DNA of 64,000 bases from IMG/VR virus record IMGVR_UViG_3300032245_001860, positions 124,001 through 188,000 of that record; one strand, given 5' to 3'. Every line of letters starts with the position of its first letter. The first letter of the stretch is position 1. Made by a program: the position numbers and the translations under genes. The stretch is from a virus. The notes under the pieces are model-generated. The model had not been told where the DNA came from. It saw only the letters and a program-made list of their open reading frames with translations, and ran no database searches. Positions 13,421 to 22,841 of the stretch are shown here, piece after piece.

Positions 13421-15022
13421 ATGGAAAAAATGAAGAAAGCCACTAATCAAGATAAATTCAAGGCACTTCGTCTTGCTGAAATTAAGCTCACTGACCAAGA
13501 AGATTACAAAAATTGCGTGAAAGATATGACCAGAACAGCTTCCCTTGATAAGGCTGAAGCAAAAGTTGTAGCTGATGCAATTAGATCTAAGTATCTTCCT
13601 AATGTTCTCAGAGAAGCTGGATTTGAGCCAGTAGATGTAAAACCTATGGTTAACACTGATTCAGAGGCAGAAGAGACTACAGACTTCGCAGATGATGAAA
13701 ACAACGATGATATGGAAGAAATGCATCATTTTGAAGATGATGAAGAAGATTTAGAAGAAGATTTTGAAGAAGATTCAGACGAAGTAGACGATGAAGAAAC
13801 AGCCAAATTTGAAATAGAAGTTCCCGCTGATATGGTTGACGCCGCACAAAAAGCTGTGCAAGAGGCGCTCGACAATCTTCTTGGCGGAGAAGATGACATG
13901 GACATGGATGAAGAAGATGACATGGACGATGAAGATGAAGATCTTGGTGAAGACATGGAAGATGAAGACATGGACATGGAAGATGAAGATATGGAAGAAG
14001 ATTCCGAGCCAAATATGCACACATCAAGTACTGGAGTTAATAAAATGACAAAGCAAGCATTGGCTGCTCGCCGTGCTCAAAGAGAAGCTATCTTAAAGAA
14101 GATTGCTTCCGAAGAAGAGAAATATCCGGCGTCCAGCTCATTTAAGTATAACGAAGATTTAGTAAATATGGAAGGCGAAGTTGATTATCCTTCTATGACA
14201 ATGGAAGGCAGTGAAGGAAACAGCCTTAAGGAACAAAACCCAACTTGGGCAGATCAAAAAGTTCCTACAAACAACGCTGATTCATTACAATTCCCAGATG
14301 TCACTAAGCCAATGAAATTTGAGGGATCTGGTGACGGATCTTTAGAATACACAGTAGATTGGGAATCATTAGAAAACCCTTCTGAGGGATTAGAAGATGT
14401 AAATCTTTTTGAAGTTCCTTCACAAATGCCATCAATGCCACATAAGACAACTGTTCCTAACTCAAGAGTTGCATCAACTGAGAAGGTTGCTGTTCAGTGT
14501 ACTACATGTGGACATAAAATGGAAATGTCAGAAGAAGAAATGGCTTCTGAAAATACCAAATGTCCAAATTGTGACAAAGATGATGACATGGAAGAAGATG
14601 AAGAAACAGATGTTGAATCTAATACAGCAGTAAAACCACTTCCTGGTGGCTATGTTGATATCAAGACTTCTGCTTCATTAGACACTGCAAGAATTAAGAC
14701 TGCTTATTCTTGCTCAAGCAAGTTAGCACTTGCTGGAATCATTGAAAGTTCAGACATTGACTCATATGCTGAGCAAATGCTTAACGATGATCTTAAAGCT
14801 GACGCAATGATTAGACAAACTAAACTTTTACTTTCTGCTGCTCAAGCATCAACTGAAAGAGTTGCTGCAGCTGCTGCTGAAAGAATGAGTGTTAGAACCG
14901 CTTCTGCAAACGGAATTTCAACATCCCCTGCATTCAATGGTAGCTCTGCTGCTAATAGTGCAGCTCTCGACATTCAAGGTGCCTTAAGAGGTACTTGGAC
15001 AATGCCACAAATCGAGGATTAA
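13421..15022 (+). CDS. acidic scaffold-like head assembly protein
   Basis: 533 aa. Residues about 75-205 are extremely Asp/Glu-rich (two long acidic blocks separated by a helical segment). A basic helix follows (KMTKQALAARRAQREAILKK), then a polar middle, a zinc ribbon (C-T-T-C near 361 and C-P-N-C near 381) and an Ala-rich helical C-terminus. An acidic, helical, low-complexity protein immediately before decoration and capsid genes fits a scaffold or core protein, though no family is recognised. An internal in-frame ATG at 14045 with GGAG 8 nt upstream could produce a 325-aa C-terminal form lacking the acidic blocks. Confidence 0.55.
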   Translation: MEKMKKATNQDKFKALRLAEIKLTDQEDYKNCVKDMTRTASLDKAEAKVVADAIRSKYLPNVLREAGFEPVDVKPMVNTDSEAEETTDFADDENNDDMEEMHHFEDDEEDLEEDFEEDSDEVDDEETAKFEIEVPADMVDAAQKAVQEALDNLLGGEDDMDMDEEDDMDDEDEDLGEDMEDEDMDMEDEDMEEDSEPNMHTSSTGVNKMTKQALAARRAQREAILKKIASEEEKYPASSSFKYNEDLVNMEGEVDYPSMTMEGSEGNSLKEQNPTWADQKVPTNNADSLQFPDVTKPMKFEGSGDGSLEYTVDWESLENPSEGLEDVNLFEVPSQMPSMPHKTTVPNSRVASTEKVAVQCTTCGHKMEMSEEEMASENTKCPNCDKDDDMEEDEETDVESNTAVKPLPGGYVDIKTSASLDTARIKTAYSCSSKLALAGIIESSDIDSYAEQMLNDDLKADAMIRQTKLLLSAAQASTERVAAAAAERMSVRTASANGISTSPAFNGSSAANSAALDIQGALRGTWTMPQIED

Positions 15023-15756: not shown

Positions 15757-16611
15757 ATGTCAATGATTAAAAGAAATACAAATGAGCAAAGAGAAGCCAT
15801 TATTGCAATGGCTCTCGAGACCCCAGAGGGTCGCACAGCTCTCGCACAAGCCATGGTTGAGCCAATCAAGACTTCCTTGATGTACCAAGCTATTGGTAGA
15901 AAGCTTCTCATGGTTGATGAGCTCCCACAAGGCGCTCTTGCAAGATATGAGAGAGACGTAGCAGTTAAGTCCTATGTCATTCCTAAGAGAGGTGCTGTTC
16001 CATCAGCTGAAGTTGAAGCAGAAGAGCTCATCGTTCCAACAATTGAACTTGCTGCTCATCCTCAAATTCGCTTGAATGAAATCAGACAAAGAAGATTCTA
16101 CATTGTCGATAGAGCTCAAGTCCGTGCTAAGGACTCCCTCCAAAGACAAGAAGATACTGAAGTCTTCAAGGTTATCAACGCAGGTGTTCCAACTGACCAA
16201 TCTATCTCTGTTTCCGGTACCCTCCAACCAGAGAACATTAACCTTGCTCTTACTCTTATTGAAGAGCACGAATTGATTGGTGCTAAGGTTGTTCTTCACC
16301 CACAAAGATACAAAGATATTAGAAACTGGGGCAAGGAATTCTTTGATGAGGCAACTCAAAGAGATATCCTCATGACTGGTCTTTATGGCCACATCTACTC
16401 AGCTGACATCCACGTTTCTACAATGGTTCCTAAGAACTCTGTTTACGTTCTTGCTCCAGCACAGTTCTGTGGTGCACTTCCAGTTCGCCAAGACATTACT
16501 GTTCTCCCAGCAGACGATCCAAAGAGACTTAGACTTGGATGGGTTGTTTATGAAGAGCTCGGATTTGCTCTCATTAACGACTATGCAGTTTCAAGAATCA
16601 CCGTTTCCTAA
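15757..16611 (+). CDS. major capsid protein
   Basis: 284 aa with a strong AAGGAG site. The layout fits a compact HK97-fold major capsid protein: N-terminal helix, an E-loop-like region around 'DVAVKSYVIPKRGAVP', a long spine-helix-like region (residues 135-190), the 'VVLHPQRYKDIRNWG' P-domain segment and a final beta-rich A-domain with 'GWVVYEELGFALIND'. Many CTC, GAG and CGC codons, which are rare in neighbouring genes, indicate codon optimisation for abundant product. It is followed by a very strong terminator and closes the head module. It is short compared with the 350-500 aa usual in large phages. No obvious propeptide is visible. Confidence 0.85.
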   Translation: MSMIKRNTNEQREAIIAMALETPEGRTALAQAMVEPIKTSLMYQAIGRKLLMVDELPQGALARYERDVAVKSYVIPKRGAVPSAEVEAEELIVPTIELAAHPQIRLNEIRQRRFYIVDRAQVRAKDSLQRQEDTEVFKVINAGVPTDQSISVSGTLQPENINLALTLIEEHELIGAKVVLHPQRYKDIRNWGKEFFDEATQRDILMTGLYGHIYSADIHVSTMVPKNSVYVLAPAQFCGALPVRQDITVLPADDPKRLRLGWVVYEELGFALINDYAVSRITVS

Positions 16612-16627
16612 TTTTATATTAGTCAAA

Positions 16628-16663
16628 CAAAAAAAGACCCTTCTTCGGAAGGGTCTTTTTTTT
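16628..16663 (+). terminator. strong intrinsic terminator with UUCG tetraloop
   Basis: An uninterrupted stem AGACCCTTC/GAAGGGTCT, closed by C(TTCG)G and extended by an A run paired with an eight-T run (T56-T63). It lies 17 nt after the capsid stop and would isolate capsid transcription from the following cassette. Confidence 0.95.
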
Positions 16664-16681: not shown

Positions 16682-16710
16682 TTTACAAAAAGTAGTTTTA
16701 AATGTAAAAT
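16682..16710 (+). promoter_or_regulatory. sigma70-type promoter of the sugar/RuBisCO-like cassette
   Basis: TTTACA (16682-16687), a 17-nt spacer and TAAAAT (16705-16710): five of six consensus bases in each hexamer with ideal spacing. The -10 ends 7 nt before ATG 16718, and there is no Shine-Dalgarno, so the transcript may be leaderless. It lies directly after the capsid terminator, which supports an independent unit transcribed by host RNA polymerase. Confidence 0.6.
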
Positions 16711-16717
16711 AAAAAAA

Positions 16718-17434
16718 ATGAATATATTAATTCCTATGGCTGGATTAGGCTCAAGATTTCCAAATTCCAAACTTCCAAAGCCACTTATCAATGTCAATGG
16801 TAAACCTATGATACAAAGAGCAGTTGAATCAATGGGCATTGATGGTAAATTGATTTTCATAACTCGACTTGAACACAATTTTGAATTTCAATTAGATAAA
16901 AAACTTAAAGATTTATTTCCAGATTCCAAAGTCATATCAGTCGATTATTTGACTGAAGGTCCAGCATGTACAGCCATGCTTGCTAAAGATCTAATTGACA
17001 AAGATGAACCATTGATTATAGCAAATTGTGATCAAATAATGAATTGGGACCATGAGACTTTTAATTTATTTTGCAAAACATATCCTCATGATGGTTTTGT
17101 TGTAACTTATTTTGCTAACACTGAAAAAAACAGCTATGTAAATATTCGAAATAATGGATTTGCAAAAGAGTTAAAAGAAAAGCAAATAATTTCCAATATT
17201 TCGACCAATGGGATTCATTTTTGGAAAAAAGGTAGCGATTTTGTACAAAGTGTTATAAGGATGATTGAAAAAAACGACCGTGCACCAAACGGAGAATTTT
17301 ATATAGCTCCATCTTATAATTATCTTATTGAAGAAGATAAAAAAATTGGTATCTATCATATCCCTAACTGTCAACATTGGGCAGTTGGAACAGAAGAAGA
17401 TTTAGAGGAATATTTGAGGATTAATAATGACTAA
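16718..17434 (+). CDS. sugar-phosphate nucleotidyltransferase
   Basis: 238 aa. This is a Rossmann-type NTP transferase that joins a sugar phosphate to an NTP to give an NDP-sugar and pyrophosphate. Visible signatures are the nucleotide loop 'PMAGLGSRF' (residues 6-14), the Lys of 'LPKPL' (K21), 'LTEGPACTA' (78-86) and the metal-binding Asp of 'ANCDQ' (D105). It is the usual length for a single-domain member (about 230-250 aa). The ATG at 16718 is chosen because the protein family begins with the beta-strand 'MNILIPMAG'; the longer frame upstream only overlaps the capsid gene. It overlaps the next gene by 8 nt. It is paralogous to the second half of the 19576 product. Which sugar and which nucleotide cannot be told. 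Confidence 0.85.
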   Translation: MNILIPMAGLGSRFPNSKLPKPLINVNGKPMIQRAVESMGIDGKLIFITRLEHNFEFQLDKKLKDLFPDSKVISVDYLTEGPACTAMLAKDLIDKDEPLIIANCDQIMNWDHETFNLFCKTYPHDGFVVTYFANTEKNSYVNIRNNGFAKELKEKQIISNISTNGIHFWKKGSDFVQSVIRMIEKNDRAPNGEFYIAPSYNYLIEEDKKIGIYHIPNCQHWAVGTEEDLEEYLRINND

Positions 17435-18077
17435 CGATGAAATTATCAAAAACGACTTGGTTGCAGAAATTAGAATGTTTTCTGATGTAGATGACCATGA
17501 CTATAACGAAGATTTTTTTAGAATGAAACACCCTGGTATGCTTCCATGGCCAAAAGGTGGAGTCAAGACAGAATTTAGTGCTTGGAATAGATCTCAATTA
17601 ACTAAACATTTTTTGAAGGTTGCTCCACATGCTAAGGCTATTCTTGAAATTGGAGTTCACAGAAATGGTGAAGATTCTTCTACTTGGTGTTTTTTGAATT
17701 ATAAAAATAAAGACACATTTTATTTTGGTATTGATATTGTTGACAAATCTTTTTTAGATGATGAAGAAAATAATATTTATACTTTACAAGAAAATTCCTC
17801 ATACACAGAAAAGATTATGAAGGTTATTAGATCCAAAGGTATTGAAAAATTTGACTTCATTTTTATCGACGGTAAGCATAGTATCAATCAAGTATTAGAC
17901 GATTGGAAGTTTACTGAATACTTAGCAGATGGTGGTATTGTTGGCTTCCATGATACAAATTGTCATCCAGGGCCAATGTTATTTGTTGATCATCTTAATA
18001 CTGAAAAGTATAATGTTGAAAAGTGCTGTAAAACTTGGCTTGTTGATTATGGTATTTCATTTGTTTCAAGAAAATGA
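17427..18077 (+). CDS. class I SAM-dependent methyltransferase
   Basis: 216 aa. The Rossmann methyltransferase pattern is clear: motif I 'ILEIGVHRNG' (72-81), an acidic end of strand 2 'GIDIVD' (D103) and the Methyltransf_24-like block 'FIFIDGKHS' (D148, H151), then 'GGIVGFHDTN' (H175, D176). Relatives methylate sugar hydroxyls in glycan pathways (rhamnosyl/macrocin O-methyltransferase type); that specificity is inferred from family and from the neighbouring sugar enzymes. The start lies 8 nt inside the previous gene with GAGGA upstream, and its TGA overlaps the cupin start as ATGA. Confidence 0.75.
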   Translation: MTNDEIIKNDLVAEIRMFSDVDDHDYNEDFFRMKHPGMLPWPKGGVKTEFSAWNRSQLTKHFLKVAPHAKAILEIGVHRNGEDSSTWCFLNYKNKDTFYFGIDIVDKSFLDDEENNIYTLQENSSYTEKIMKVIRSKGIEKFDFIFIDGKHSINQVLDDWKFTEYLADGGIVGFHDTNCHPGPMLFVDHLNTEKYNVEKCCKTWLVDYGISFVSRK

Positions 18078-18400
18078 TTATAGATAATATTTCTAACATG
18101 TTCAGAGGCTGGTTCATTGGAAACTTTGAACCAGCTATTTTCAAATCTAAAGATTTTGAAGTTGGAATTCTTTTTCATCCTAAAGGCGAAAAATGGCCTA
18201 AACATTATCATAAAGAAGCAGTAGAAGTTAATGTTTTAATGTCTGGTAGAATGACAATTAATGGAAAACTATTATCATCTGGTAATATATTTCTTATTGA
18301 AAAAAATGAAATTGCTGATCCTGAGTTTTTAGAAGATTGTACAATTGTATGTGTAAAAACTCCATCTATTCCTGGAGATAAATATGAGGTCAAAGAATGA
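18074..18400 (+). CDS. small cupin-domain protein
   Basis: 108 aa, a single cupin barrel. Motif 1 is visible: H44-x-H46-x4-E51 followed by the Gly of 'LMSGRM', which normally forms a metal site. Motif 2 (about residues 76-92) lacks the usual His, so the metal site may be three-ligand. Cupins act as isomerases, epimerases, dioxygenases or lyases. Both ends overlap neighbours by ATGA, placing it in strict coupling with the methyltransferase and the RuBisCO-like gene. In Rhodospirillum rubrum a cupin acts directly after a RuBisCO-like isomerase in methylthioadenosine salvage, a suggestive but unproven parallel. Confidence 0.75.
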   Translation: MIIDNISNMFRGWFIGNFEPAIFKSKDFEVGILFHPKGEKWPKHYHKEAVEVNVLMSGRMTINGKLLSSGNIFLIEKNEIADPEFLEDCTIVCVKTPSIPGDKYEVKE

Positions 18401-19572
18401 TTTTTGTAGATGAAATTGATTCGAATAAATACATCAAAGGTTTTTATTATTTAGAGTCTTCAAAAGGTGTTAGAGATGCAGCATGGAATCTTGCTATTGG
18501 ACAGAGTGTTGGAAATCCATTAGTTAGATTGGAAAGAGAAACAGATGAACTTTTTGCAAATCATTCTTGCGTAGTAAAAAACTGCCCTGATTTAGATGCA
18601 AACTCTGGACGTGTAGAAATTGGTTTCCCAGTATCTAATATTGATTTCGCATCTGACGGTATTTCCCAGTTGCTTTGTTTTCTTATGGGTGGACAATTAG
18701 ATATTGATACCATTGAAACATGCTGGCTTGAAAAGCTAATTATTCCTGACTGGGTAATTGAAAAATATTTCAAAATGCCAAAATTTGGTATCACTGGGGC
18801 AAGAGAGTATACCAAGTCATATGACAAGCCTTTATTAGGCGGTATTTGCAAACCAAAAACTGGAATTAGCCCTGATATTCTTTTAGATATGGTCAAAGAA
18901 ATGGTTGATGGTGGAGTTAATTTTATCAAAGAAGATGAAATTATGGCCAATCCTGAATGCTGTTTGCTTGAAGAAAGAGTTTCTCTTATCTCAGATTACA
19001 TCAGAGATAAGAATGTGGTTTATTGTTTCTGTATTAATTCTGATCCAGCACATATTTTAGAGAGAGTCAAGTTTGTTCATCAAGAAGGTGGAAATGGCAT
19101 CCATATCAATTTCTGGTCTGGCATGGGTGTTTACAAGTCAGTAAGAGAATTGGACTTGCCATTGTTTATGCACTTTCAAAAAAGTGGTGACAAGATTCTT
19201 ACAAATAAAAAGCATGCGTTCCATATTGATTGGAGTGTAATTTGTTATCTTGCTGGACTTATGGGTGTTGACTTCATTCATACTGGAATGTGGGGTGGAT
19301 ATGCAAGTGATGATGAAAATGACCTGAGAAATACTATGAGTATTTTGAATGCAAGAAATGTAGTGCCAGCATTGTCATGTGGCATGCATCCTGGAATCGT
19401 AAACACCATTACTGAAAAGTTTGGCATCAACTATCTTGCAAATTGTGGGGGAGCATTACATGGACACCCAAAAGGAACTGTTGCAGGAGCCAAAGCAATG
19501 AGGCAAGCTATCGACAAAACTTACGGTGAAGAATATTTTCAAGCTATAAATAAATGGGGCCTTGTTCAATAA
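18397..19572 (+). CDS. RuBisCO-like protein (form IV type)
   Basis: 391 aa, close to the normal 400-430 of the family, with N-terminal alpha/beta domain and TIM barrel. Catalytic positions aligned by motif (spinach numbering): K175=K152 and K177=K154 in 'CKPKTG'; carbamylated K201=K178, D203=D180 and E204=E181 in 'GGVNFIKEDE'; H294=H259; H327=H295 in 'FIHTG'; S379=S327, G381=G329; G403-G404=G351-G352 and 'GHP-x-G' (356-360). Lost are R295 (F260), loop-6 K334 (Y302), E60 (G35) and T65 (N40). The metal and enolization apparatus therefore persists without the CO2-handling lysine, so an enolase, isomerase or decarboxylase-type reaction on a sugar phosphate is likely rather than carboxylation. It is coupled to the cupin by ATGA and followed 3 nt later by the HAD-nucleotidyltransferase. 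Confidence 0.9.
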   Translation: MIFVDEIDSNKYIKGFYYLESSKGVRDAAWNLAIGQSVGNPLVRLERETDELFANHSCVVKNCPDLDANSGRVEIGFPVSNIDFASDGISQLLCFLMGGQLDIDTIETCWLEKLIIPDWVIEKYFKMPKFGITGAREYTKSYDKPLLGGICKPKTGISPDILLDMVKEMVDGGVNFIKEDEIMANPECCLLEERVSLISDYIRDKNVVYCFCINSDPAHILERVKFVHQEGGNGIHINFWSGMGVYKSVRELDLPLFMHFQKSGDKILTNKKHAFHIDWSVICYLAGLMGVDFIHTGMWGGYASDDENDLRNTMSILNARNVVPALSCGMHPGIVNTITEKFGINYLANCGGALHGHPKGTVAGAKAMRQAIDKTYGEEYFQAINKWGLVQ

Positions 19573-19575
19573 AGC

Positions 19576-20940
19576 ATGCTAAAGCTTGTTGTTTTTGATT
19601 TAGATGGAGTTTTAGTTGAAGCAAAAGAAATTCATTTTGATGCTTTAAATTCTGCATTGAAAAATGTTGATGAAAAATATGTCATATCTTGGGAAGAACA
19701 TCTCAGAACATATGATGGCTTGAAAACATATGACAAACTAAAACTCTTATCTGAATATAAGGGTTTACCACTTGATAAGAGCATTCAAGAAAAAATATTT
19801 AATGATAAACAAATTTTCACAACAAGAGCACTTAATGATCTTCAAAAAAATCAAAAACTAATCGATATTTTTACCAAGTTAAAAGAAGAAAATTTCAAAA
19901 TAGCTTGTTGTTCAAATTCTGTAAAAAATACAGTGGATTTAGTTCTTGATAAGCTTGGCATTGATAAGTTTTTTGACTTAAAATTATCAAATGCAAATGT
20001 AAAATTTGCTAAACCTCATCCAGAAATCTATTGGAAAGCAATGTCTTATTTTGGAGCATTACCTGAAGAAACATTGATTATTGAAGATTCTCCTACTGGG
20101 TTAACTTCAGCATATAAATCTGGAGCTAAAGTATTAAGAGTAAAAGATCCTAATGATTATGATTTTGATAAAATACTTTCATCTTGCAATTCTGTAAAAC
20201 AAAATATTGAAAAATGGGCTGATCAAAAAATGAATGTAATTATTCCAATGGCTGGTCATGGCAGTAGATTTTCTCAAGCTGGATATACATTTCCCAAACC
20301 CTTAATAGAAGTACATGGTAAACCTATGATTCAAGTTGTTATAGATAACTTGAAAGTAGATGCTCATTTTATTTTCATTGTTCAAAAAGAACATAGAGAA
20401 AAATATAATCTTGATTCTATGCTTTCTTTATTAGCTCCAGGTTGCGATATTGTAGATGTAGATAAAGTAACAGAAGGAGCTGCTTGCACTGTATTATTAG
20501 GTAAAGAATTTATCAATAATGACAATCCTCTGGTAATAGCTAATTCAGATCAATTTGTAGAATGGAGTAGTTTAGATTTCTTTTACAAAATGAACGAACA
20601 AAACTTAGATGGTGGTATTGTTTCTTTTAAATCAACACATCCCAAATGGTCTTATGCAAAGGTAGATAGTCAGGGGTTTATTTTAGAAGTAGCTGAAAAG
20701 AAAACTATTTCTGATATTGCTACAGTAGGAATTTATTACTGGAAAAAAGGATCTGATTTTGTCAAGTATGCAGAACAAATGATTGATAAAAATATCAGAG
20801 TAAATAATGAGTTTTATGTATGTCCTGTTTATAATGAAGCTATTTTAGATGGACTTAAGTTTAAAACATTTGATGTGCCAAAAATGTGGGGGCTTGGCAC
20901 ACCTGAAGATTTAGATTATTACTTGGAAATGAATAAATGA
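19576..20940 (+). CDS. HAD phosphatase / sugar nucleotidyltransferase fusion
   Basis: 454 aa, two domains. Residues 1-210 form a HAD hydrolase of the beta-phosphoglucomutase/phosphatase type: motif I 'FDLDGVLV' (D8, D10), motif II S113 in 'CCSNS', motif III K146 in 'FAKPHPEIY', motif IV 'IEDSPTG' (E170, D171). Residues 219-454 are a nucleotidyltransferase: 'PMAGHGSRF' (224-232), 'FPKPL' (K241), 'VTEGAACT' and 'ANSDQ'. The second half is plainly paralogous to the stand-alone enzyme at 16718. The fusion suggests that dephosphorylation or mutase action and nucleotidyl transfer act on the same intermediate. It overlaps the next gene as ATGA. Confidence 0.85.
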   Translation: MLKLVVFDLDGVLVEAKEIHFDALNSALKNVDEKYVISWEEHLRTYDGLKTYDKLKLLSEYKGLPLDKSIQEKIFNDKQIFTTRALNDLQKNQKLIDIFTKLKEENFKIACCSNSVKNTVDLVLDKLGIDKFFDLKLSNANVKFAKPHPEIYWKAMSYFGALPEETLIIEDSPTGLTSAYKSGAKVLRVKDPNDYDFDKILSSCNSVKQNIEKWADQKMNVIIPMAGHGSRFSQAGYTFPKPLIEVHGKPMIQVVIDNLKVDAHFIFIVQKEHREKYNLDSMLSLLAPGCDIVDVDKVTEGAACTVLLGKEFINNDNPLVIANSDQFVEWSSLDFFYKMNEQNLDGGIVSFKSTHPKWSYAKVDSQGFILEVAEKKTISDIATVGIYYWKKGSDFVKYAEQMIDKNIRVNNEFYVCPVYNEAILDGLKFKTFDVPKMWGLGTPEDLDYYLEMNK

Positions 20941-21809
20941 AAAGACTAACTGCTATTTACTGGGTCAAGAATGAAGCAAGATATATTCCTGAGTGGATAG
21001 AATTTCACTTGATGCAAGGATTTGAACATTTTATACTTTATGATAACAATTCTACTGATGGAAGTCAAGAAATACTACGACCATATATTGATGCTGAAAT
21101 TTTGGAATTAAGATCATATCCAGCAGAAATGAAACAGAGATGTCTAAATAGGCCTTTAGGGGCAAAAAACTATTGGGTGGCTGAAACATGTATGCTTGAA
21201 CAAAGAAAGAAGTCAGACTGGCTTCATTTTCATGCTGTAGATGAATTTACATACTGCCCAGATGGTACAGACTTGAAAGATTTTCTTACAGAGTTTGATA
21301 AGTATGGTGGGCTTTCAGTTTGTTGGCAATGTTATAACTCAAATGGACATATAAATAGACCTGAAGGACTTGTAATTGAAAACTACAATGTGAGAGTCCC
21401 AGATCCAATGTGTCATGTTAAAACATTCCTTAAGGTTGGTCGTGCTAAGCAAACTTGTGGATCTTTGCACAATTGGGAATATATTGGAAACTATCAATCA
21501 GTCAATGAAAATCATAAACCTGTAGTGGGATCATTTTGTCCAGATGATTTTTCCTTCAATAGAATAAGAAATCATCACTATGTAACTATGTCTCGTGAAG
21601 AATTTGATATCAAGACAAATAAAGGTATTTTAGATTCAGCTTGGGCAGAAAACAGAAGAAGGCATAATTATGATTATCAATTTGATGATTACAATAATAG
21701 AGAACATATCTTCGATGATATTCTAAAACCTTGGGTACCTAAAGTAAAAGAAGCTATTATGAAAAGGTATCACACTAATAAAGATTTTTTACCTTTAATA
21801 AATCATTAA
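20937..21809 (+). CDS. glycosyltransferase (GT92/DUF23-like)
   Basis: 290 aa. The first 45 residues carry the signature of the GT92/Glyco_tranf_2_4 group: 'WVKNEARYIPEWIEFH' (10-24), then 'FILYDNNSTDGS' (32-43). An acidic site follows at 'AVDEF' (D102, E103), where relatives have D-x-D-E-F. It would transfer a sugar from a nucleotide-sugar donor to an unknown acceptor. It is the last gene of the plus-strand cassette, linked by ATGA to the HAD-nucleotidyltransferase, and ends at a bidirectional terminator. No signal peptide or membrane segment is seen, so it should act in the cytoplasm. Confidence 0.75.
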   Translation: MKRLTAIYWVKNEARYIPEWIEFHLMQGFEHFILYDNNSTDGSQEILRPYIDAEILELRSYPAEMKQRCLNRPLGAKNYWVAETCMLEQRKKSDWLHFHAVDEFTYCPDGTDLKDFLTEFDKYGGLSVCWQCYNSNGHINRPEGLVIENYNVRVPDPMCHVKTFLKVGRAKQTCGSLHNWEYIGNYQSVNENHKPVVGSFCPDDFSFNRIRNHHYVTMSREEFDIKTNKGILDSAWAENRRRHNYDYQFDDYNNREHIFDDILKPWVPKVKEAIMKRYHTNKDFLPLINH

Positions 21810-21845
21810 ATATAAACCCATCGAAATCGATGGGTTTATATTTTT
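21808..21845. terminator. bidirectional intrinsic terminator
   Basis: A 17-bp near-continuous inverted repeat (core CCCATCGA/TCGATGGG) is flanked by T-rich tracts on both strands. It lies between convergent genes ending at 21809 (plus) and 21836 (minus), and the stem includes the last codons of the minus gene. It closes the cassette. Confidence 0.9.
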
Positions 21846-22816
21846 GCGACAGAAGCTCCATCAAAATCAAATTTAAAATTGAAAGGCTTGTTATTGTAAA
21901 ACTTTTGTTTGATTTTATTCTGAGCATATGAATCAGCAAAAAGCATCATAAAGCCCCCACCACCAGCTCCTAATATTTTTCCTCCCTTAGCTCCACAAAG
22001 CTTAGCTTCTTCATACATTTCATTGATTTCTAAATTAGAAATATCATCTGACACTTCTTTTTTAAGTTGCCAAGAATAATCAAGCATTTCACCAAAGTGT
22101 GTTAGATCTTTTTTAATTAAGTTAATTTTAAATTGTTGAGCTAATTCAACCATGGTTTTTATATTCTGAAAACTTTTATCATTATCAATCATTCTTTTGC
22201 TTTGATTTTTAAGAATGTCGTCAGCAGATCTACCTTTACTTGTATGCAGCAATATGAGGTTATTTTCAAGATATTCTATAGTATCTTCATCTAAAGTTAT
22301 TGTATTAGTTGAGACACCTCTATCAGCAAATTCATGAACATTGAATCCACCATAAGAACAAGCGTATTGGTCTTGTTTTCCAATAGGCTTTTTACATAAA
22401 TTAATTTCTATGATACAGGCTAACTCTGCCAATGAACCTTTACTTAGTATCTCTTCTGAATATTTATAATTTTCTATTGCTTTGATTAATCCAACAGCGA
22501 AAGCACTTGAAGCACCCATTCCTGTTCCATTGGAGGGTAAGTCGGAAATAGAGGCTATTTCGATACCATTTGTAATATCAAAATACTTCAAGGTATGTTT
22601 TACGATGTCATGCTTTAAGTCATCTAAATTATTGACATTTTCTGTAATAGAATAGCTCAATCTAATGGAATCATCAAACTTTTTATTCAATGATATATAT
22701 AAATACTTATTTATAGAAGCAGAAACGACCATTCCAGGGCTTTGGTTGTAAAAAGAAGATAAATCAGAACCGCCCCCAAAAAAACTTATTCTAAATGGAG
22801 TTTTACTTACTATCAT
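21836..22816 (-). CDS. GHMP-family sugar kinase (HddA-like)
   Basis: 326 aa. The N-terminus 'MIVSKTPFRISFFGGGSDL' is characteristic of heptose/fucose-type GHMP kinases such as D-glycero-D-manno-heptose 7-phosphate kinase. The ATP loop 'PSNGTGMGASSAF' lies at 94-106 and the C-terminal 'GAKGGKILGAGGGGFM' motif is present. It would phosphorylate a sugar or sugar phosphate at the anomeric position, supplying a nucleotidyltransferase. The ATG at 22816 is preferred over an upstream TTG because family members begin exactly here. It is the only minus-strand gene of the sugar region and is divergent from the glycosyltransferase at 22839 across a palindrome. Confidence 0.85.
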   Translation of the reverse strand: MIVSKTPFRISFFGGGSDLSSFYNQSPGMVVSASINKYLYISLNKKFDDSIRLSYSITENVNNLDDLKHDIVKHTLKYFDITNGIEIASISDLPSNGTGMGASSAFAVGLIKAIENYKYSEEILSKGSLAELACIIEINLCKKPIGKQDQYACSYGGFNVHEFADRGVSTNTITLDEDTIEYLENNLILLHTSKGRSADDILKNQSKRMIDNDKSFQNIKTMVELAQQFKINLIKKDLTHFGEMLDYSWQLKKEVSDDISNLEINEMYEEAKLCGAKGGKILGAGGGGFMMLFADSYAQNKIKQKFYNNKPFNFKFDFDGASVAKI

Positions 22817-22841
22817 ATGACTATTGTACAATTAGCATATG
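22814..22841. promoter_or_regulatory. palindromic divergent start region
   Basis: The two divergent ATGs are separated by only 22 nt. CATATG occurs at both ends (22814-22819 and 22836-22841) exactly symmetric about a perfect 10-bp palindrome ATTGTACAAT (22823-22832). The palindrome yields TACAAT, a good -10, on both strands, each 6 nt before its ATG. This implies two overlapping, probably leaderless promoters and perhaps a dimeric regulator site. Symmetry is seen; function is inferred. Confidence 0.45.

Follow-up and report, generated by a model that had tools for sequence, protein, structure and literature searches.

We find that the 391-aa open reading frame at 18397-19572 (+ strand) of a 64,000-nucleotide stretch of viral DNA (hereafter, the window) encodes a RuBisCO-superfamily protein from a distinct clade whose members, in the collections searched, are found mainly in phages. 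We consider it probable, if far from settled, that this RuBisCO-like protein (RLP) is a non-carboxylating enzyme in a phage-borne pathway to a nucleotide-activated surface-glycan building block, most likely a Mg2+-dependent enolising sugar-phosphate isomerase or epimerase that feeds the neighbouring nucleotidyltransferase (NTase). The reaction (enolisation), the sugar-phosphate substrate and the surface-glycan role are inferred, and activity has not been demonstrated; what is documented below is the fold, the residues of the active site, the clade, the conserved gene linkage and the purifying selection.

The RuBisCO-like protein and its fold

The window comes from a 315,852-bp virus record with genes for a portal (6575) and a major head protein (15757-16611, + strand; PHROG 2522, 5e-67), which confirms the phage origin given in the preliminary description, and the RLP gene lies close downstream of the head gene. 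Its ATG start forms an ATGA overlap with the stop codon of the gene before, and a GAGG Shine-Dalgarno-like sequence is found 7 nt 5' of the start. The protein matches Pfam PF00016 (RuBisCO_large) at 6e-33 over residues 131-375 and the NCBIfam RuBisCO and RLP models at 1e-21 to 2e-45, each far under its equivalog cut-off, and given these values the superfamily match cannot be put down to chance. An AlphaFold model (mean pLDDT 94.8, pTM 0.92) finds its best PDB fold matches in form III RuBisCOs (~24% identity, TM 0.90 over the query), with other RuBisCOs and RLPs ranking next. The RuBisCO_large domain and the two-domain TIM-barrel fold together meet the definition of a superfamily member. A best profile match outside the superfamily, or a predicted fold without the barrel and its K/D/E cluster, would have refuted the preliminary description; the best matches lie inside the superfamily, and the confident model has both barrel and cluster.

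With archaeal form III RuBisCO the protein shares the fold, the order of motifs, the carbamylatable-Lys/Asp/Glu site, K175/K177, H327 and S379 (spinach numbering), but it differs in the replacement of K334, H294, R295, E60, T65, N123 and G404 and in its viral glycan-gene setting. No solved structure of the clade was found, and BFVD structures include no full-length match (best TM 0.42). Comparison with a 92%-identical relative (L001) gives a dN of 0.056 and a dS of 1.42; with a ratio of ~0.04, the RLP is under strong purifying selection and the enzyme is maintained.

Just 5' of the head genes, the window also encodes a 533-aa protein (13421-15022) with long acidic Asp/Glu/Met runs that is nearly unmatched in PHROGs (0.0004 to a 53-position family).

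Active-site residues

Active-site positions were read from a family-wide alignment of phage and cellular clade members with other RuBisCO and RLP groups; one-letter residues follow spinach numbering, and three-letter residues are those of the window protein. Lys152/Lys154, Lys178-Glu179-Asp180-Glu181, His295, Ser327, Gly351-Gly352 and the GHP motif are nearly invariant in 54 aligned copies, as the preliminary description had proposed in recognising a RuBisCO relative from these motifs and their order; Gly329 is a further residue of note. Phage and cellular members retain K175, K177, K201, D203, E204, H327 (with one viral exception), S379 and G381. The metal site K201/D203/E204 corresponds to Lys178, Asp180 and Glu181 in all aligned members, carbamylation being only predicted.

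The clade is further marked by the substitutions E60->G, T65->N, N123->G, H294->Q, R295->K and K334->Y, those at K334, H294, T65, E60 and N123 being present in every member, and by Ala or Ser at G404 with rare exceptions; the long-branch member L075 has Arg at 295. In the window protein these positions are Gly35 (E60), Asn40 (T65), Gly (N123), Gln261 (H294), Lys262 (R295), Tyr302 (K334) and Ala353 (G404). The assignments of K334, E60 and T65 in the preliminary description thus stand, whereas its reading of R295 as Phe was a misalignment: PDB alignments and the family-wide table put Lys262 there, positioned by the HFQKSG stretch, and Phe260 aligns with residue 293. The His259 it listed is indeed present and aligns with H292, but the catalytic position H294 is occupied by Gln261. 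Clade signatures are IGQSxGNP, GGQxDI, FIKEDEI, QKSGD and GMxGGY.

In RuBisCO, CO2 addition needs K334 and H294, and enolisation relies on K175 together with the metal site. The P2 phosphate pocket is made up of R295, H327 and S379, the P1 pocket of T65, W66, K334 and G404. In the RLP clade the P2 pocket is kept, with Lys for Arg, and the P1 pocket is degraded. Two residues expected of a true RuBisCO, the loop-6 lysine K334 and H294, are Tyr and Gln in all clade members, and the protein instead fits form IV, a RuBisCO fold with carboxylase-essential residues substituted, activity being undemonstrated. Judged from the alignment, carboxylation is very unlikely because H294, R295, K334, E60, T65, N123 and G404 are all replaced. 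The kept P2 pocket, the degraded P1 pocket and the metal site together predict enolisation of a P2-held phosphorylated ketose without carboxylation.

The residue combination is the clade's own, because the other form IV groups compared show other losses: K177, R295 and H327 in the MtnW (2,3-diketo-5-methylthiopentyl-1-phosphate enolase) example, and K177 in OiaX and the kinase-paired RLPs, which retain H294, R295 and K334. None of the characterised RLP groups in the alignment has Gln at the position of the general base H294, and for this reason the chemistry could differ from plain enolisation.

We also considered a catalytically dead RuBisCO fold serving as a binding or structural protein, for which the loss of K334 and H294 could be cited. 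We regard this as very unlikely: hardly any variation is seen across the whole metal site or at the two lysines, and the substituted residues (Q, K, S, G, D, Y) are fixed too, as those of an active site would be.

Phylogeny and distribution

A maximum-likelihood tree of 74 proteins, including forms I, II and III, MtnW and relatives, OiaX and kinase-paired RLPs and a YjbQ-linked RLP, separates 46 phage and cellular members from the rest by a 100/100 branch, which is recovered in 100% of 200 bootstrap trees; all of these other groups fall outside. The tree that the preliminary description had called for therefore yields a separate clade, with no grouping with forms I, II or III as a true RuBisCO would show. 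Inside it, a 100/100 subclade unites 30 phage and 5 cellular proteins; the proteins related to it come from SAR11, DPANN, Verrucomicrobia, Azospirillum, Legionella and Elusimicrobia. The plasmid-borne L200, which has a YjbQ neighbour and was taken as the IV-Photo representative, lies outside the clade, which is thus not IV-Photo.

The RLP might be a branched-sugar or sugar-acid phosphate decarboxylase or hydrolase comparable to OiaX and the four-carbon acid sugar kinase-paired RLPs, with which it shares fold and metal site. NCBIfam OiaX is among its best models (3.7e-38), and the P2-site His and Ser are retained as in the kinase-paired RLPs. We nevertheless think this improbable: the OiaX match reaches 131 bits against an equivalog cut-off of 700, the clades are separate (100/100), and H294 and K334 are lost in the one and kept in the other, with K177 the reverse. 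Moreover, OiaX and kinase-associated RLPs have catabolic neighbours, whereas the RLP loci, where an NTase is the rule, showed no adjacent four-carbon acid sugar kinase.

A single profile scan of IMG/VR yielded 297 viral loci with the RLP, and a single scan of 84,980 cellular genomes yielded 24 cellular loci; the ratio is only indicative, as the two scans used different peptide patterns on collections of unequal size. No match was found in 50,697 GenBank phage records or in PHROGs, and among 299 Pseudomonadota genomes a close clade member occurs only in the Legionella anchor. These results support a clade that is distinct from the RLP groups tested and mostly phage-borne in the collections searched. 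T4-type Gp23 capsid genes occur in 14 of 43 large carrier records and terminase in 22 of the 43 (15 over the cut-off). We note that the contig L054, assigned to a 'Crocinitomicaceae' MAG, is probably a phage contig that ended up in a bacterial bin: in the first tree its RLP is identical to that of the viral L040.

Six of 34 carriers are probably cyanophages, since they bear psbA/psbD-type genes; such genes are absent from the window's phage record. Together with the retained K175, K177, K201, D203 and E204, and with reports of viral rbcL as carbon-fixation auxiliary metabolic genes (PMC8506154, PMC12615777; the clade of those genes is unestablished), these carriers could suggest a CO2-fixing RuBisCO with which the phage raises carbon fixation in its host. 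This is the explanation we find hardest to credit: K334, H294, T65, E60 and N123 are substituted in all clade members, most carriers have no psbA match, and the neighbours are glycan genes rather than Calvin-cycle genes.

The cassette in the window

Six genes that overlap or nearly overlap run 3' of the head gene on the + strand, beginning with a sugar-phosphate NTase (16718-17434, ATG at 16718; PHROG 3980, 1.4e-59), whose profile matches the nucleoside-diphosphate-sugar pyrophosphorylase of PDB 4evw (4e-34). It is followed by a 216-aa Methyltransf_24-type methyltransferase (17427-18077; Pfam PF13578, 4e-7), a small cupin of 108 aa (18074-18400; PHROG 24762, 4e-35), the RLP, a HAD phosphatase/phosphomutase-like domain fused to a second NTase domain (19576-20940; Pfam HAD_2 1.5e-25, NTP_transferase 1e-11; 6e-27 to the NCBIfam beta-phosphoglucomutase family) and a GT92/GT2-type glycosyltransferase (20937-21809; Pfam PF01697, 3e-19). 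A strong intrinsic terminator (16629-16662, + strand; 15-bp stem and T run) separates the head gene from the cassette, and a terminator-like 16-bp inverted repeat (21808-21843) follows the glycosyltransferase, so that the cassette looks like a single transcription unit inserted 3' of the head gene. A sigma-70-like promoter match (16682-16710, + strand; 10/12) lies just 5' of the NTase, and the scan alone cannot separate it from chance.

The cupin's profile matches solved cupins, and in its alignment the H-x-H...E metal motif is conserved and the second cupin motif is without His. RLP, HAD domain and cupin superficially resemble MtnW, MtnX and MtnD, and a methionine-salvage-type enolase, with the cupin as acireductone-dioxygenase analogue, would account for the fold, the metal site, S379/G381/G403 and the missing carboxylase lysine, all common to MtnW and the RLP. 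The case for it is nonetheless very weak. MtnW has no P2 pocket (R295->P, H327->L) or K177 and keeps H294, the opposite of the RLP clade, which has H327, S379 and K177; the missing second-motif His speaks against the cupin's part; the conserved partner is an NTase; and the RLP lies in a separate clade with other neighbours, scoring only 93 bits where the TIGR03332 cut-off is 514, and 124 where that of NF007095 is 409.

Across the inverted repeat, a GHMP sugar kinase gene (21836-22831, - strand; NCBIfam NF049969 at 5e-46, under the equivalog cut-off) faces the cassette. It is closest to D-glycero-D-manno-heptose 7-phosphate kinase (HddA), and the L001 cassette adjoins one too. The RLP could thus be a heptose-pathway isomerase that replaces GmhA (SIS fold) and feeds the HddA-like kinase and the NTase. 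In fact, a SIS_2 isomerase is absent from 36 RLP-bearing records (positive controls included), and an RLP-less cyanophage has the kinase and a weak SIS match. However, the RLP is not consistently accompanied by the kinase, many records are fragmentary, and GmhA could come from the host; we consider this reading unlikely.

Conserved gene linkage

The conserved NTase/cupin/GDPD-like neighbourhood is the most informative feature of the RLP, and one that the preliminary description overlooked. In loci dereplicated at 90% RLP identity, with partners counted within 3 genes, an NTase accompanies the RLP in 35 of 37 viral and 10 of 11 cellular loci. A cupin and a GDPD-like protein are equally frequent in the viral set, at 27/37 each, and are present in 3/11 and 7/11 of the cellular loci, respectively. 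The further neighbours are WavE, glycosyltransferases, methyltransferases and sugar epimerases. The window departs from the usual set in that a methyltransferase sits between NTase and cupin and its virus record has no GDPD-like match; consequently, not every partner is essential.

The linkage to NTase, GDPD and LicD genes extends to the deepest cellular members: a gene for a LicD transferase (Pfam, 6e-44) lies next to the RLP-NTase pair of Legionella, and full-length GDPD genes lie close by in Verrucomicrobia and DPANN RLP loci. LicD enzymes transfer phospho-groups from CDP-activated donors, so that phosphodiester-linked glycan decoration is an appealing form of the model, though one still without proof.

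The GDPD-like partner, a compact protein of ~150 aa, retains HRG, EN, E-x-D, GHD, H and K; its best PDB profile matches are GDPDs (0.003), and GDPDs are also the first, if weak, fold matches of its model (pLDDT 95.9). Identification as a HAD phosphatase was ruled out in favour of GDPD by the HRGN/E-x-D/GHD motifs, the PDB profile matches and the predicted fold. The family (cluster c0, PHROG 34507; for example L003:11217-11708) comprises 88 proteins with these catalytic motifs in RLP loci and is also found in 16 Synechococcus phage records; its function is unknown and it deserves separate study.

Annotated glycosylation islands of cultured cyanophages (the Synechococcus phages S-SM2, Bellamy, SynMITS9220M01, DSL-LC03 and B23) hold homologous NTase, cupin and/or GDPD-like genes among glycosyltransferases and have no RLP, as judged from the GenBank search above. 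The RLP is therefore one interchangeable step of a broader toolkit. A 103-aa 'phosphoheptose isomerase' of S-SM2 was rejected as a cupin homologue, with no alignment and a weak HAD_PNKP match.

Two variant loci are of interest. In one phage group (L028:8903-16124 and relatives L029, L030, L032, L033 and L036-L038), the RLP neighbours are an APH-type kinase, a dehydroquinate-synthase-like sugar-phosphate cyclase, an SDR and a radical SAM gene, which suggests a cyclitol-like product. In L044 (4306-5676), a HAD-NTase fusion replaces the NTase directly before cupin and RLP; this fusion and that of the window tie a phosphatase/phosphomutase step to the RLP pathway.

Proposed reaction and pathway

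In the mechanism we propose, Lys178 (probably carbamylated), Asp180 and Glu181 would bind Mg2+, which would hold the carbonyl and a hydroxyl of a phosphorylated ketose with its phosphate in the P2 pocket of Lys262, His295 and Ser327. A metal-site base and Lys152/Lys154 may then shift a proton via an enediolate to give an isomer or epimer. The neighbouring NTase, sometimes HAD-fused, would activate this product, and glycosyltransferases or phospho-transferases would attach it to a virion or host-surface glycan. Because phage glycosylation islands are gene-rich and mobile, some of the linkage may stem from shared location and not from a common pathway.

A more specific version holds that this mostly phage-borne clade, with Gln/Lys/Tyr for H294/R295/K334, catalyses a reaction undescribed for the superfamily and supplies an unusual nucleotide-activated surface-glycan sugar; we advance it tentatively, with less conviction than the general role.

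Discussion

The RuBisCO superfamily itself is already known; what is new here is that the RLP gene sits in a conserved NTase/cupin/GDPD-like cassette. Novel marine RuBisCO homologues, unplaced and without known function, were described in the 2007 GOS work, which reported neither phage assignment nor genomic context (PMC1821046). The phage RLP clade is probably the same as, or may overlap, those homologues, no direct sequence comparison having been made. They presumably correspond to the group later named IV-GOS. The functional RLP in a possibly new clade envisaged by the preliminary description gains support from the distinct branch and the purifying selection, while its activity remains to be shown and its clade may be that of 2007.

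We found no report of the clade's active site, phage distribution or neighbourhood in the literature searched. Papers on Lac Pavin, landfill, Great Salt Lake and contaminated soil, considered without their supplements, do not describe its context or activity, and some mention viral 'rbcL' or 'RbcL-like' genes, names that recur in recent work (PMC12607003, PMC8506154, PMC12615777). A soil-virus rbcL is credited with RuBP carboxylase activity (PMC12615777), and its relation to the RLP clade is unestablished; the clade behind that claim needs checking, as phage RLPs lack K334 and H294. The same check should be applied to published viral rbcL claims. As some carriers are cyanophages, routine pipelines could call the RLP gene viral 'rbcL'; the active site contradicts this, and a carbon-fixation annotation would be wrong.

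RLPs are a model for the origin of new enzyme activities, and several of their clades are without function. The present clade is widespread in phages, and its neighbours offer a testable role, sugar-nucleotide synthesis. If true, glycan biosynthesis would gain its first RuBisCO relative and phages the first one to which a role is assigned, along with new sugar chemistry and a previously unrecognised phage route to altering virion or host surfaces.
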